From positions 1 to 30,878 of IMG/VR virus record IMGVR_UViG_3300023171_000034: a stretch of 30,878 nucleotides of DNA. The stretch is one strand, 5' to 3'. A program made the translations under genes and the position numbers. The stretch is from a virus. Below, in pieces: positions 2,308 through 13,389 of the stretch. The notes under the pieces were generated by a model. It saw only the letters and a list, made by a program, of their open reading frames with translations. It was not told the DNA's origin and ran no database searches. Position 1 is the first letter of the stretch. Each line of letters starts with the position of its first letter.

Positions 2308-2315
2308 TTCTGTAG

Positions 2316-2332
2316 GTTGTCACATAGACAAC
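2316..2332. promoter_or_regulatory. Operator O1, palindrome GTTGTC-N5-GACAAC
   Basis: A perfect 6+6 inverted repeat (GTTGTC, spacer ACATA, GACAAC) lies between the divergent Cro-like and repressor genes. The same palindrome recurs at 3540-3556, and with one changed base at 3585-3601. It is therefore very likely the binding site of one or both XRE proteins. A protein bound here would cover the start region of the leftward operon. Confidence 0.8.
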
Positions 2333-2360
2333 TTCTTTTCAATGGGGTCTCCAAAAAAAA

Positions 2361-2412: not shown

Positions 2413-2751
2413 ATGGTGACACGGATCGGTCCAACAAAGCCCTTGAGGCATTTCCTACGGGAATGGCGTGAGATGAAGCGGCTTACACAGCAGCAGCTCG
2501 CAGACCGTCTCCCTATTGGGGAAAACGGAAAGCCGACCGACAAGGGCCAGGTCAGCCGATGGGAGCGCCATGAGCGCGGGATCACTATGGATGTTCAGGC
2601 GGCGCTTGCCGAGGCTCTGGACTTGGATTCGCCGGCCGATCTTTTCAGAGACCCGGCCACCCCGAGCGCAGATGAGCTATTGCGGCGCGCCACACCAGAG
2701 CAGCGCAGACAGGCGTTTTTCCTGATCGAGACGATCCTAAAGGCCGGCTGA
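2413..2751 (+). CDS. XRE-family repressor (CI-like, no peptidase domain), 112 aa
   Basis: A helix-turn-helix lies at about residues 15-58: the LTQQQLADRL helix, a nine-residue insertion, then GQVSRWERHERGI as recognition helix and loop. The remaining half is helical and probably dimerises. Lambda CI-type repressors carry a LexA-like peptidase domain and are about 230 aa long; this protein has none, so it cannot self-cleave in the SOS response. Induction would need an antirepressor or another signal. The start ATG 2413 lacks a ribosome site, and the upstream in-frame extension shows no start signal. Position opposite the Cro-like gene and the operators support the prophage repressor role. Confidence 0.8.
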   Translation: MVTRIGPTKPLRHFLREWREMKRLTQQQLADRLPIGENGKPTDKGQVSRWERHERGITMDVQAALAEALDLDSPADLFRDPATPSADELLRRATPEQRRQAFFLIETILKAG

Positions 2752-2949
2752 TTTTTCAAAGACCACAACAGCGCGAATTTCATGGTTGATGGCAAATTGC
2801 CATTCGCCGCCGTGCCGGTCATGCATCGCCTTTTGCAGCTCGCCGGCGGCGCGCAGACAGATAACATCCAAATCCTCGCACCTCGCCGTAATAGAAAATC
2901 CGCCAAAAGCGAGCGGCAAAGCTGTCAAAAACACTCTTCTATTAGGCAT
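2737..2949 (-). CDS. Small exported protein, 70 aa
   Basis: The start ATG 2949 has a GGGGGAG ribosome site six bases upstream; the longer ORF from 2979 lacks one. The N-terminus is a signal sequence: NRRVFLTALPLAFGGFSITA has two arginines, a hydrophobic core and a plausible cleavage after the Ala-rich end. This leaves a mature peptide of about 45-50 residues with two cysteines. It converges on the repressor gene, overlapping its 3' end by 15 bases. A periplasmic protein next to the repressor is a reasonable candidate for lysogenic conversion or superinfection exclusion, but this is inference. Confidence 0.6.
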   Translation of the reverse strand: MPNRRVFLTALPLAFGGFSITARCEDLDVICLRAAGELQKAMHDRHGGEWQFAINHEIRAVVVFEKSAGL

Positions 2950-3032
2950 TTCATGCTCCCCCGACCAGCTTCTTGTCAATTTTCTTTAAATGTTACTCCT
3001 GCCCGTAATATTAGCAATACCCAACAAATTAG

Positions 3033-3046
3033 TCACAAGTTTGTGA
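3033..3046. promoter_or_regulatory. Palindrome TCACAA-GT-TTGTGA in an AT-rich intergenic region
   Basis: A perfect 6+6 inverted repeat lies in an AT-rich stretch (about 2970-3090) between the minus-strand exported-protein gene and the plus-strand non-coding region. It differs from the GTTGTC operator, so another regulator would bind. Its right arm, TTGTGA, could serve as a -35 box, with TATTGT 16 bases downstream (3063-3068) as a -10 box. That would start transcription near 3075. Confidence 0.4.
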
Positions 3047-3088
3047 TATGCAATAATTTGAATATTGTATCACTTTACTGACGGCATA

Positions 3089-3100
3089 GCTATCAACAAG
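3089..3100 (+). repeat. Left copy of direct repeat flanking the non-coding RNA
   Basis: GCTATCAACAAG here recurs as GCTATCCAACAAG at 3470-3482, differing by one inserted C. The two copies bracket the structured region almost exactly. They could be the trace of insertion of a roughly 380-bp element, a functional single-stranded motif used twice in the RNA, or chance. Confidence 0.5.
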
Positions 3101-3469
3101 ACGGTAGGGTGAGGCTACCCAGCCGAATGCTTCAGTCTCTATAGGCCTGCAAGACAGGTTGGCGCATTATCGCCCCGGACTGGCGTGGGTCACCTGAGGG
3201 GTCCGGCGTCTCCTGGCTGGTTCGAAAACCTCACCTTGTTCTGCGTTTATCCCCTGCCCTTGCGGAGCGGGTAGGTCCGTCTCAAAGACCGCGCAACCTG
3301 TCTCATGCTGTCCAAATGCCGGTTAGCCATCAAAAGGCGTCTCGACACGAAGGCCCCGATTTATGGAGATCGGCAACTCGTTCGGAGGTTTTGGCTTGGA
3401 TCGACGCAGACGTTATGATATAACAATCCTTGTCGTTGGCAGCGGATAAAACTTCCGAGGGTCAAAACC

Positions 3470-3482
3470 GCTATCCAACAAG
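3470..3482 (+). repeat. Right copy of direct repeat flanking the non-coding RNA
   Basis: GCTATCCAACAAG is the partner of the copy at 3089-3100. It overlaps the first bases of the terminator stem. Confidence 0.5.
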
Positions 3483-3519
3483 CCCGCTTGAAGCATGATC
3501 GCTTCGGCGGGCTTTTCGT
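3480..3519 (+). terminator. Intrinsic terminator of the non-coding RNA
   Basis: AAGCCCGC (3480-3487) pairs with GCGGGCTT (3507-3514). The loop holds a second stem, GAAGC (3490-3494) with GCTTC (3501-3505), and TTTTCGTTT follows. Because it lies upstream of the operators at 3540 and 3585, it separates the non-coding RNA from the early operon. Confidence 0.8.
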
Positions 3520-3539
3520 TTATGCCATTTGAAATCGCG

Positions 3540-3556
3540 GTTGTCTATATGACAAC
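3540..3556. promoter_or_regulatory. Operator O3, palindrome GTTGTC-N5-GACAAC
   Basis: A perfect copy of the palindrome at 2316, with spacer TATAT, lies upstream of the long rightward early operon that begins at 3672. It is presumably where the repressor blocks early transcription. I could not place a convincing sigma-70 promoter here; TATATG within the operator could be a -10 element, but no good -35 lies 16-18 bases before it. Confidence 0.8.
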
Positions 3557-3584
3557 TTTATTTGCGGACCCCTCTTGCGCTCAA

Positions 3585-3601
3585 GTTGTCTATGTGCCAA
3601 C
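3585..3601. promoter_or_regulatory. Operator O4, GTTGTC-N5-GCCAAC
   Basis: It is the same palindrome with one mismatch in the right arm, centred exactly 45 bases from O3, about four helical turns. The O1-O2 pair has the same spacing. This suggests cooperative binding of two repressor dimers on the same face of the DNA. Confidence 0.7.
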
Positions 3602-3671
3602 TTATGGAGGCAAGCAGCGGGGACGAAGACGGTTCGCCAGATCTCCCCGAGCGAAACAGAGGACACGGCAG

Positions 3672-4274
3672 ATGAGCACCAGACTGACCAAAGACATTCG
3701 AGAAAGCATCGCCAAGGCGCTGGTTGTGCATCGGTTCACAGCGCAGATCACCAAGCTCTATGCGGATAACGCCGCATTGGCTCTTGCGGTCTACAACGAC
3801 GCCTACAGCAAGGCCGACCGCGAAAAAATGATGGCGTTGCCCAATGGGTGGCTTCCCGAAGTTGACACCATTTCGGCCTATTTCGGGACGTCCTACACGA
3901 CAGTCAATGTCAACGGTAAGGTCTATGGAGATCTTGCGCGCATCGTCTCTGCCGACAAGAACGCCGCCACTTTTCGCGTTCAGTCACGGCATAAAGGCGC
4001 TTGCCTCAAGAAGTACGACGCAATCCACAAATTCAGCGCCGAGTATGACCGCCTTCAAGGCGTTAAATCTGATCTGACTACGGCTGTAGATACGGCCCGC
4101 CGGTCTGCACTGGCTGCGATGGCGGCGGTCGGCACAGTCAAGCGCTTGATCGAAGTGTGGCCGGAGATAGCCCCCTTCGCCAGCAAGTTCGAAGGCGAAC
4201 GACCTCAGTTGCCCGCCTTGCAGACCGACAAACTCAACGAACTTCTGGATTTGCCGGTAGCCGAAGCCGCCTGA
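3672..4274 (+). CDS. Probable Nmad5-family protein, 200 aa
   Basis: This is the first gene of the early operon. The start ATG 3672 follows AGAGGA by eight bases; the ORF is open further upstream to 3495, but that part overlaps the operators and is not protein-like. The opening (STRLTKDIRESIAKALVVHRF), the central LPNGWLPEVDTISAYFG segment and the helical C-terminus resemble, from memory, phage proteins called nucleotide modification associated domain 5 (Nmad5). Their biochemical role is not established; they were proposed to act with phage base-modification enzymes. No other modification enzyme is visible in this window. Confidence 0.55.
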   Translation: MSTRLTKDIRESIAKALVVHRFTAQITKLYADNAALALAVYNDAYSKADREKMMALPNGWLPEVDTISAYFGTSYTTVNVNGKVYGDLARIVSADKNAATFRVQSRHKGACLKKYDAIHKFSAEYDRLQGVKSDLTTAVDTARRSALAAMAAVGTVKRLIEVWPEIAPFASKFEGERPQLPALQTDKLNELLDLPVAEAA

Positions 4275-12042: not shown

Positions 12043-12257
12043 GCCGAGGCGCCTTCATGCAAGCGGATCTGGAGCGGGTCATCCGGGCGGCCAAACGCGA
12101 GGGCGCCGAGGTGCATTTCGACATGCGGACCCTAGTTGCTACCGTTATCCCCACTATCCACAGCCCCGAGGCCGTTGACCACCCGCACCGCGGTCCCCGC
12201 ATCCTTCCGCCGGGCAAGCTTGCGCCCGATGGAAAGGAAAATTGGGATGAGAACTGA
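12039..12257 (+). CDS. Hypothetical early protein, 72 aa
   Basis: It starts at ATG 12039 in an ATGA overlap. The N-terminal half is helical and basic (QADLERVIRAAKREGAEVHF); the C-terminal half is Pro- and His-rich. Its last eleven bases overlap the start of the integrase gene, so the two are likely co-translated. Position next to int suggests a possible excisionase-like role, but there is no clear winged-helix pattern to support that. Confidence 0.55.
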   Translation: MSRGAFMQADLERVIRAAKREGAEVHFDMRTLVATVIPTIHSPEAVDHPHRGPRILPPGKLAPDGKENWDEN

Positions 12258-13389
12258 CAGGCCCGGATATCAATCCCGGAAGAATACGGACGGGACTACC
12301 GTCCACTATTGGAATCCGAAGAGGGCGGTGAAAGCCGCCCCTTCGTTTCTCTCGGCAAAACGGCTTGCCGACGATCTCGATGACGCTCAGATAGCCGCCG
12401 AGTGCCAAAAGCTCACCGACCAGTTGCGGGAGGAGCTTCGCGATCTCGACACGCCCCCGGCGTTCGAAGGCACGATCAAATCCCTCATCGCCTGCTACAA
12501 GCACGACAAGACCAGCACGCTGCACAGCGTGAAGCACTCCACCCGGATCCGGGACTATGAACCGAGCCTGCGGGTTTTGGAGAATGTCGTCGGTGACCGA
12601 CGCATAGACATGCTTCGCGCGTCGGATTTCAAGCGCTGGTTCGAAGGCTGGAAGAAGAAGGGCCACAGGAGGGCGTCAGGCGCGATCAAGCTCCTGCGGG
12701 TAATCCTCACCTACGGAGCCGGCGAACGCATTCCTGGCTGCGCTCAGGCACGGGAAATCCTGTCCACGATGCGTTTCGAGCAACCGGCGAACAGAACCGT
12801 CGTCATGACCTATGACCAGTGCCTGGCGATCGTGAAAAAGAGCGCCGAAATGGAATGCCCGTCGATCGGGTTTGTCGAGGCGCTGAAGTTCGAATCGGCG
12901 CTGAGACGAATAGACGTGATTGGGGAGTGGGTGCCGGCAGATGACGGCGGCGCTTTCAGATGGCGCGGTCTTTCGGCGGGGGATATCTCGAAAGACATGA
13001 TCCTGTCGATCAAAACGAGCAAGACCGGGGCTGCGGCATCGCGTGACCTGAAGGTCATGCCGCTCGTGCAAGAGGCTCTGAAGGCCTACACGATCCCGAA
13101 GATCGGGCCGGTGGTGATCGATGAGGATCACAAAAAAGCATACTGGGAAAACCGCTATACGGAGAAATTCCGGAAGGTGCGAGAAGCGGCCGGCGTGCCA
13201 GACGATGTCTGGTCAATGGATTCGCGGGCCGGGGCGGTATCGGAAACCGTCGAGGCGACGGGATCACTAGAAGCGGCTCGGGATCTTGCGACCCATACGA
13301 CGACCAAGACGACGAGACGTTACAGTCGGGGGGATGGTTTGGAGGCGAGCCGGGTGACGGCGGCGGCGCGGTTGAAAAACCGCAAGTGA
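12247..13389 (+). CDS. int: Tyrosine recombinase (phage integrase), 380 aa
   Basis: This catalyses site-specific integration and excision at attP, 51 bases past its stop. The catalytic residues of the family are readable: R220 or R221 in ESALRRIDVIG, a beta-hairpin Lys near K259 (TSKTG), the second Arg R327 in MDSRAG, H350, and the nucleophile Y359 in RRYSR. The usual H-x-x-R box is altered to D-S-R, a variant seen in other integrases of this kind. A core-binding domain spans about residues 70-175. The chosen ATG 12247 follows AAGGAAAATTGGG. The gene is last in the early operon, so it is expressed during early transcription. Confidence 0.9.
   Translation: MRTDRPGYQSRKNTDGTTVHYWNPKRAVKAAPSFLSAKRLADDLDDAQIAAECQKLTDQLREELRDLDTPPAFEGTIKSLIACYKHDKTSTLHSVKHSTRIRDYEPSLRVLENVVGDRRIDMLRASDFKRWFEGWKKKGHRRASGAIKLLRVILTYGAGERIPGCAQAREILSTMRFEQPANRTVVMTYDQCLAIVKKSAEMECPSIGFVEALKFESALRRIDVIGEWVPADDGGAFRWRGLSAGDISKDMILSIKTSKTGAAASRDLKVMPLVQEALKAYTIPKIGPVVIDEDHKKAYWENRYTEKFRKVREAAGVPDDVWSMDSRAGAVSETVEATGSLEAARDLATHTTTKTTRRYSRGDGLEASRVTAAARLKNRK

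Follow-up and report, generated by a model that had tools for sequence, protein, structure and literature searches.

A conserved, structured RNA gene outside the known Rfam families in the control region of Rhizobiales phages

The phage studied here carries, between its immunity region and its early operon, a stretch for which a preliminary description, made from the sequence alone, proposed an unassigned structured RNA gene (3076-3519 of the window, i.e. of the whole 30,878-base virus record that was analysed). Large structured RNAs are rare in phages, and most of them have no known function. The locus raises the question of whether it encodes such an RNA and, if so, on which strand the gene lies and what the RNA might do.

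Relatives of the locus and known RNA families

All reading frames of the region, on both strands, contain three to nine stop codons, in agreement with the proposal that it is non-coding. Relatives were gathered with DNA patterns from conserved blocks, with blastn and with a covariance model. Together, these approaches identified about 20 distinct relatives, nearly all of them in Rhizobiales phages or prophages, from IMG/VR contigs and from the genomes of Rhizobium, Mesorhizobium and related bacteria. In four cultured Rhizobium phages (RHph_N2, RHph_Y1_10, RHph_I3_18 and RHEph18), the region is 70-73% identical by blastn and lies between the repressor and the early genes; no RNA gene is annotated at this region in any of the four. 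One covariance model (R1) recovered the divergent member L032, which was absent from its building set, with an E-value of 8e-9, and a second model (R2) detected the window RNA on the minus strand with 104 bits. The RNA is rare in host genomes, i.e. it was found in 1 of 397 genomes in the order sample, 1 of 385 in the class sample, 2 of 148 in the genus sample and 2 of 146 in the Mesorhizobium sample, while two of the five matches among 395 genomes in the family sample were real. Extra scans with other motifs returned known members and chance matches only, and a plasmid search gave no match to the RNA. Chance pattern matches rejected by inspection or by the model were L020, L031, L037-L041, L043-L047, L049, L051, L077-L079 and L082-L086.

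Two observations concern individual relatives. The RNA regions of IMG/VR contig 2791355261 and Rhizobium sp. J15 appear identical (L055, L068) and, therefore, this contig is probably a prophage of Rhizobium sp. J15. Moreover, the RNA gene of RHph_I3_18 is overlapped, on the other strand, by the GenBank 'hypothetical protein' EVC14_043 (QIG75041.1; L001 4861-5271), which was probably called in error.

The preliminary description had considered, among other options, a new class of RNA, and the search of known families agrees with an undescribed family. Rfam 15 gave no gathering-level match anywhere in the window and no match up to an E-value of 5 in 2900-3700; the homologues gave no match, or a single weak one attributable to chance (asX2, 19.4 bits vs a cut-off of 70). 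Thus, none of the covariance models of this release, including those for RNase P, tmRNA, 6S, GOLLD, ROOL, OLE and HEARO, matched the RNA. ARAGORN found no tRNA or tmRNA, and searches of the literature did not turn up an account of this RNA.

The fold and its covariation

The RNA gene and its structural elements are listed from the 5' end, in the minus-strand orientation argued for below; the predicted RNA is 419 nt long in the window, and 419-485 nt across the members measured.

3090..3512, minus strand: RNA gene, placed by conservation, covariation and promoter position; probable 5' end at about 3512, probable 3' end at about 3090
3480..3514, minus strand: 5' hairpin of the RNA (AAGCCCGC/GCGGGCTT, inner GAAGC/GCTTC)
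3436..3478, minus strand: hairpin n, 3436-3445 with 3468-3478; its sequence varies by lineage, and its swap test was not significant
3382..3458, minus strand: helix m, 3382-3392 with 3448-3458; swap test, wobbles favouring plus
3356..3373, minus strand: hairpin j, 3356-3362 with 3367-3373; swap test p of about 0.02, wobbles favouring plus
3294..3303, minus strand: 5' arm of helix c, 10 bp with 3152-3161
3277..3282, minus strand: AGACGG, strand of helix a (with 3104-3099)
3274..3290, minus strand: hairpin g, 3274-3277 with 3287-3290; 98.4% paired, double changes in two pairs
3251..3271, minus strand: hairpin h, loop GCAA on the minus strand (3263-3260); double changes in four of five pairs
3244..3250, minus strand: invariant ATAAACG motif, from the alignment
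3229..3235, minus strand: GGTGAGG, 5' strand of helix b (with 3114-3108), invariant in alignment A3
3175..3206, minus strand: helix d, 3175-3180 with 3201-3206; double changes in four of five pairs
3167..3172, minus strand: invariant CGATAA motif, from the alignment
3152..3161, minus strand: 3' arm of helix c; swap test and covariation
3099..3119, minus strand: 3' terminal strand, with the local hairpin GGTAG/CTACC at 3103-3119

Folded as a single sequence, the RNA has an unremarkable energy (z -1.45 on the plus strand, -1.76 on the minus strand) and, therefore, the structural case rests on the relatives. In an alignment of the core of 16 members on the minus strand (A3), standard pairs make up 93.2% of cells, and both partners vary in 25 of the 42 pairs. 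The covariation score of 0.418 falls to at most 0.098 once the pairing is slid; these measures are inflated because the structure was derived from A3 itself, but an earlier hand-drawn structure gave the same picture.

Two of the proposed helices show compensatory changes in the relatives. Helix c, a perfect 10-bp pairing of AGACAGGTTG (3152-3161) with CAACCTGTCT (3294-3303) in the window, changes on both sides in nine of ten pairs in its extended form. Moreover, swapping its arms between members weakened the pairing from -16.0 kcal/mol in cis to -11.8 kcal/mol, and 0 of 2000 permutations were as good. Similarly, helix d, formed by CCGGAC (3175-3180) and GTCCGG (3201-3206), is present in the window and covaries. 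By contrast, the 6-bp helix proposed at 3119/3215 (CCAGCC/GGCTGG) is present in the window but has no equivalent that we could see in the relatives. Further support comes from helix m, for which the arm swap gave -16.5 kcal/mol in cis vs -14.3 kcal/mol swapped, again with 0 of 2000 permutations as good; this helix links the loop of hairpin n to an outside strand and thus forms an H-type pseudoknot. Hairpin g is GGTC/GACC in the window vs GGGC/GCCC elsewhere, and nearly all relatives have GCAA, GGAA or GCGA as the loop of hairpin h. For a candidate helix that would close the fold by pairing the 3' domain with the far left end, the swap test was not significant, and this helix was rejected.

The hairpin singled out in the preliminary description is present as named: GGTAG (3103-3107) and CTACC (3115-3119) close a GGTGAGG loop (3108-3114) that is complementary to 3229-3235, and a kissing pseudoknot is possible. 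This loop pairing, helix b (GGTGAGG/CCTCACC), is nearly invariant and is, therefore, neither supported nor refuted by covariation. As alternatives to the local hairpin, the 3' terminal strand has long-range partners for CCTCACC (3114-3108) and for CCGTCT (3104-3099). Because helix c crosses both helix a (GACGG/CCGTC) and helix b, the core is pseudoknotted if either of these forms, and helix c, itself supported by compensatory change, would then be part of a pseudoknotted core.

In total, the fold is kept across the relatives with compensatory base-pair changes beyond chance. We conclude that 3090-3512 is a gene for a conserved and structured non-coding RNA that falls in no Rfam family, and that it represents a genuine, undescribed RNA family in the control region of Rhizobiales phages.

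Strand and promoter

The preliminary description had read the RNA on the plus strand, ending in an intrinsic terminator at 3480-3514. A predicted sigma70-type promoter of the form TTG-N17-NANAA is conserved just beyond the right end of the RNA, on the minus strand. In the window it reads TAGACA-N17-CATAAA, from 3547 to 3519.

3542..3547, minus strand: predicted -35 element of the RNA promoter, TAGACA; T and G are invariant in 17 members and the middle T is present in 16, the window having A
3519..3524, minus strand: predicted -10 element, CATAAA, exactly 17 bases from the -35 element; its second and fourth A are invariant

The -35 TTG is complete and at the exact position in 16 of 17 aligned members, and the spacer is fixed at 17 bases (18 in one further member), while the identity between members in the flank and spacer is only about 30% at the median. 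The RNA gene thus has its own predicted promoter, as judged by conservation. The aligned members showed no comparably conserved plus-strand promoter at the left end.

The core of the RNA points to the same strand. With the structure derived on the minus strand, its wobbles comprise 69 G-U vs 8 A-C; moreover, in the pairs drawn earlier by hand on the plus strand, A-C cells outnumber G-U cells. The consensus energy is -95.0 kcal/mol on the minus strand vs -78.5 kcal/mol on the plus strand for the core, and -159.6 vs -140.9 kcal/mol for the whole RNA. Finally, the conserved hairpin loops on the minus strand (GCAA, GGAA, GCGA, GAAA or GTAA) follow the GNRA pattern. Based on the wobbles and consensus energy of the core, the GNRA loops and, as the strongest argument, the conserved promoter, we place the RNA on the minus strand with high confidence. 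The plus-strand assignment is, therefore, most likely wrong, and with it the reading of 3480-3514 as a terminator; the GC-rich hairpin itself is present and, given the minus-strand promoter, would be the 5' hairpin of a leftward RNA, although it may still terminate plus-strand transcripts.

Other features fit a plus-strand RNA that would be made with or after the repressor mRNA and end at a terminator at 3480-3519. The right-end hairpin followed by T-rich DNA has the look of a plus-strand terminator throughout the family, even where no plus-strand gene lies upstream. In addition, helices m and j of the 5' domain carry G-U on the plus strand (A-C on the minus strand) in many members, so that a strict wobble tally over all helices is mixed, with the core favouring minus and these two helices favouring plus; the z-scores of single-sequence folding do not clearly separate the strands. 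In several phages, the repressor or another gene has its stop codon only 12-48 bases before the left end of the RNA, as would suit a transcript following on from that gene, but this spacing also leaves no room for a left-end promoter in these phages. With the conserved promoter and the properties of the core all on the side of the minus strand, we regard a plus-strand RNA as quite unlikely.

Two smaller candidates were rejected. A separate plus-strand sRNA from TTG-N17-TATAAC (3393-3421) was discarded because this stretch also folds into hairpin k, which covaries, and because some members lack the motif or have it in a changed form; a leader peptide (GGAGG plus TTG) was discarded because its frame is not preserved between members, as judged by inspection.

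Operators, neighbouring genes and a possible role

As proposed, the RNA gene is a unit of its own, placed between immunity region and early operon. The following features adjoin it.

3539..3557, no strand assigned: operator-like palindrome GGTTGTCTATATGACAACT, overlapping the -35 element of the RNA promoter
3584..3602, no strand assigned: second operator-like copy AGTTGTCTATGTGCCAACT, on the early-operon side
2315..2333, no strand assigned: third operator-like copy, upstream of the repressor
2413..2751, plus strand: small HTH repressor gene (Pfam HTH_31/HTH_3, PHROG transcriptional repressor), convergent with the RNA
2737..2949, minus strand: small protein with an RR-type N-terminus, co-directional with the RNA and, in this subgroup, immediately downstream of it

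The palindrome AGTTGTC-N5-GACAACT has four matches in the window, three of them strong, vs a chance mean of 0.78, and none of 100 shuffles had as many. In many members, the stretch from the RNA promoter to the early side contains two copies of a palindrome specific to the phage, spaced about 34-35 bases apart, and in most members the nearer one ends about 7 bases upstream of the -35 element of the RNA promoter. The RNA is compact and has a fixed place in the genetic switch, and the adjoining operator-like sites change in sequence from phage to phage while their layout is constant. If these palindromes are operators, this layout has the geometry of a divergent, repressor-controlled promoter pair. 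Because the putative operator of the window overlaps the -35 element, repression, and hence expression in early infection or induction, is suggested; by its position upstream of the -35 element in most members, the bound repressor could activate rather than repress.

The genes next to the RNA vary. By inspection, the repressors are of at least two unrelated types. In G013 and G016, about 17 bases separate the stop codon of the repressor gene from the 3' end of the RNA; in AFS, Mmed and M4B, a repressor or other HTH gene ends within 50 bases of the RNA; other members encode a small RR-type protein between the repressor and the RNA, or have an unrelated gene there. The widely conserved genes adjoining the RNA are regulators. 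Among ten window proteins, there was no defence match beyond HTH regulators, and no conserved neighbour protein was found that would tie the RNA to a known defence or nuclease system as its guide or effector.

Three window proteins deserve separate mention. The 2737-2949 protein has a twin-arginine-like N-terminus (MPNRRVFLTALPLAFGG) and a counterpart between the repressor and the RNA at L002 4464-4673; its counterparts in seven relatives form cluster 5, to which the window copy does not belong. The first early gene, 3672-4274 (plus strand), matches Pfam Nmad5, a nucleotide modification associated domain, and suggests modified phage DNA or related functions. Finally, a large ORF at 12136-13389 (plus strand) has a tyrosine-recombinase-like C-terminus (HTTTKTTRRYSR), has no PHROG or Pfam match at an E-value of 0.001, and is possibly a divergent integrase.

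The 3' end of the RNA could also be read as a cis-acting leader. In most members, the strand CCTCACC..CCGTC has two competing partners, and toggling between the local hairpin and pairing with GACGG and GGTGAGG would set whether leftward transcription stops or reads through, either into downstream minus-strand genes or, antisense, into the repressor gene. A co-directional gene begins within about 60 bases of the RNA in G003, G015, G019 and G609, and elsewhere the convergent repressor is next, as such a leader would have it. However, different phages have unrelated genes downstream, often in convergent orientation, and the large pseudoknotted fold exceeds the needs of an attenuator. We consider this reading unlikely.

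Because the downstream genes differ between phages and no conserved protein partner except regulators adjoins the RNA, we infer that the RNA acts in trans. Altogether, the explanation that we favour, and hold to be probable on the sequence comparisons, is a leftward, repressor-controlled, trans-acting phage RNA gene of about 420 nt in the lysis-lysogeny switch. In this trans-acting model, the RNA would be driven by the sigma70-type promoter at 3547-3519, which points away from the early operon and is overlapped by a putative repressor operator. The transcript would begin with a GC hairpin and then form a pseudoknotted core that its own 3' end closes, with CCUCACC and CCGUC pairing back to GGUGAGG and GACGG. 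Its 3' end would lie close to that of the convergent repressor gene, or ahead of an unrelated gene on the minus strand; a position near 3090 is an estimate, with no strong minus-strand terminator evident there. Most likely, the RNA would be made when the repressor is absent, in early infection or upon induction, and, being stable and structured, might act in trans on a protein or RNA of the host or phage. More tentatively, a new pseudoknotted RNA class may be a component of the lysis-lysogeny switch that is expressed from a repressor-controlled promoter opposite the early promoter, influences the decision or the host in trans, and has been kept across unrelated repressors and operators; we give this broader proposal somewhat less than even credence. 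Since members are present in cultured Rhizobium phages and in Rhizobium and Mesorhizobium genomes, strand, timing and function are directly testable by RNA-seq and deletion.

Several known systems resemble this locus in part. The oop RNA of phage lambda is likewise a leftward transcript from its own promoter in a phage control region; however, oop is simple, about 77 nt long and antisense to cII, whereas the RNA described here has about 420 nt and a conserved pseudoknotted fold. The CI RNA of P4 and the c4 RNA of P1 are also non-coding RNAs of phage immunity regions, but they are small and processed from the leader of the transcript that they terminate, whereas this RNA diverges from the early transcript and lies outside it. 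At lambda OR, operators lie between the divergent promoters PR and PRM, and here, too, the putative operators lie between two divergent promoters; the difference is that the leftward promoter here drives an RNA gene, with the repressor convergent to it.

Nearest in kind are GOLLD and ROOL, which are likewise large, ornate and pseudoknotted RNAs of phages and prophages. By analogy, the RNA could be an RNA-only assembly that forms homo-oligomers in the lytic phase, which would suit its lack of a conserved protein partner; without a covariance match to either family, and with a position in the control region whereas GOLLD and ROOL are often found near tRNA islands (PMC12286853), this seems very unlikely. 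In addition to having no match in Rfam, the RNA is shorter than GOLLD and ROOL, and it is located at the immunity switch with adjoining operator-like sites.
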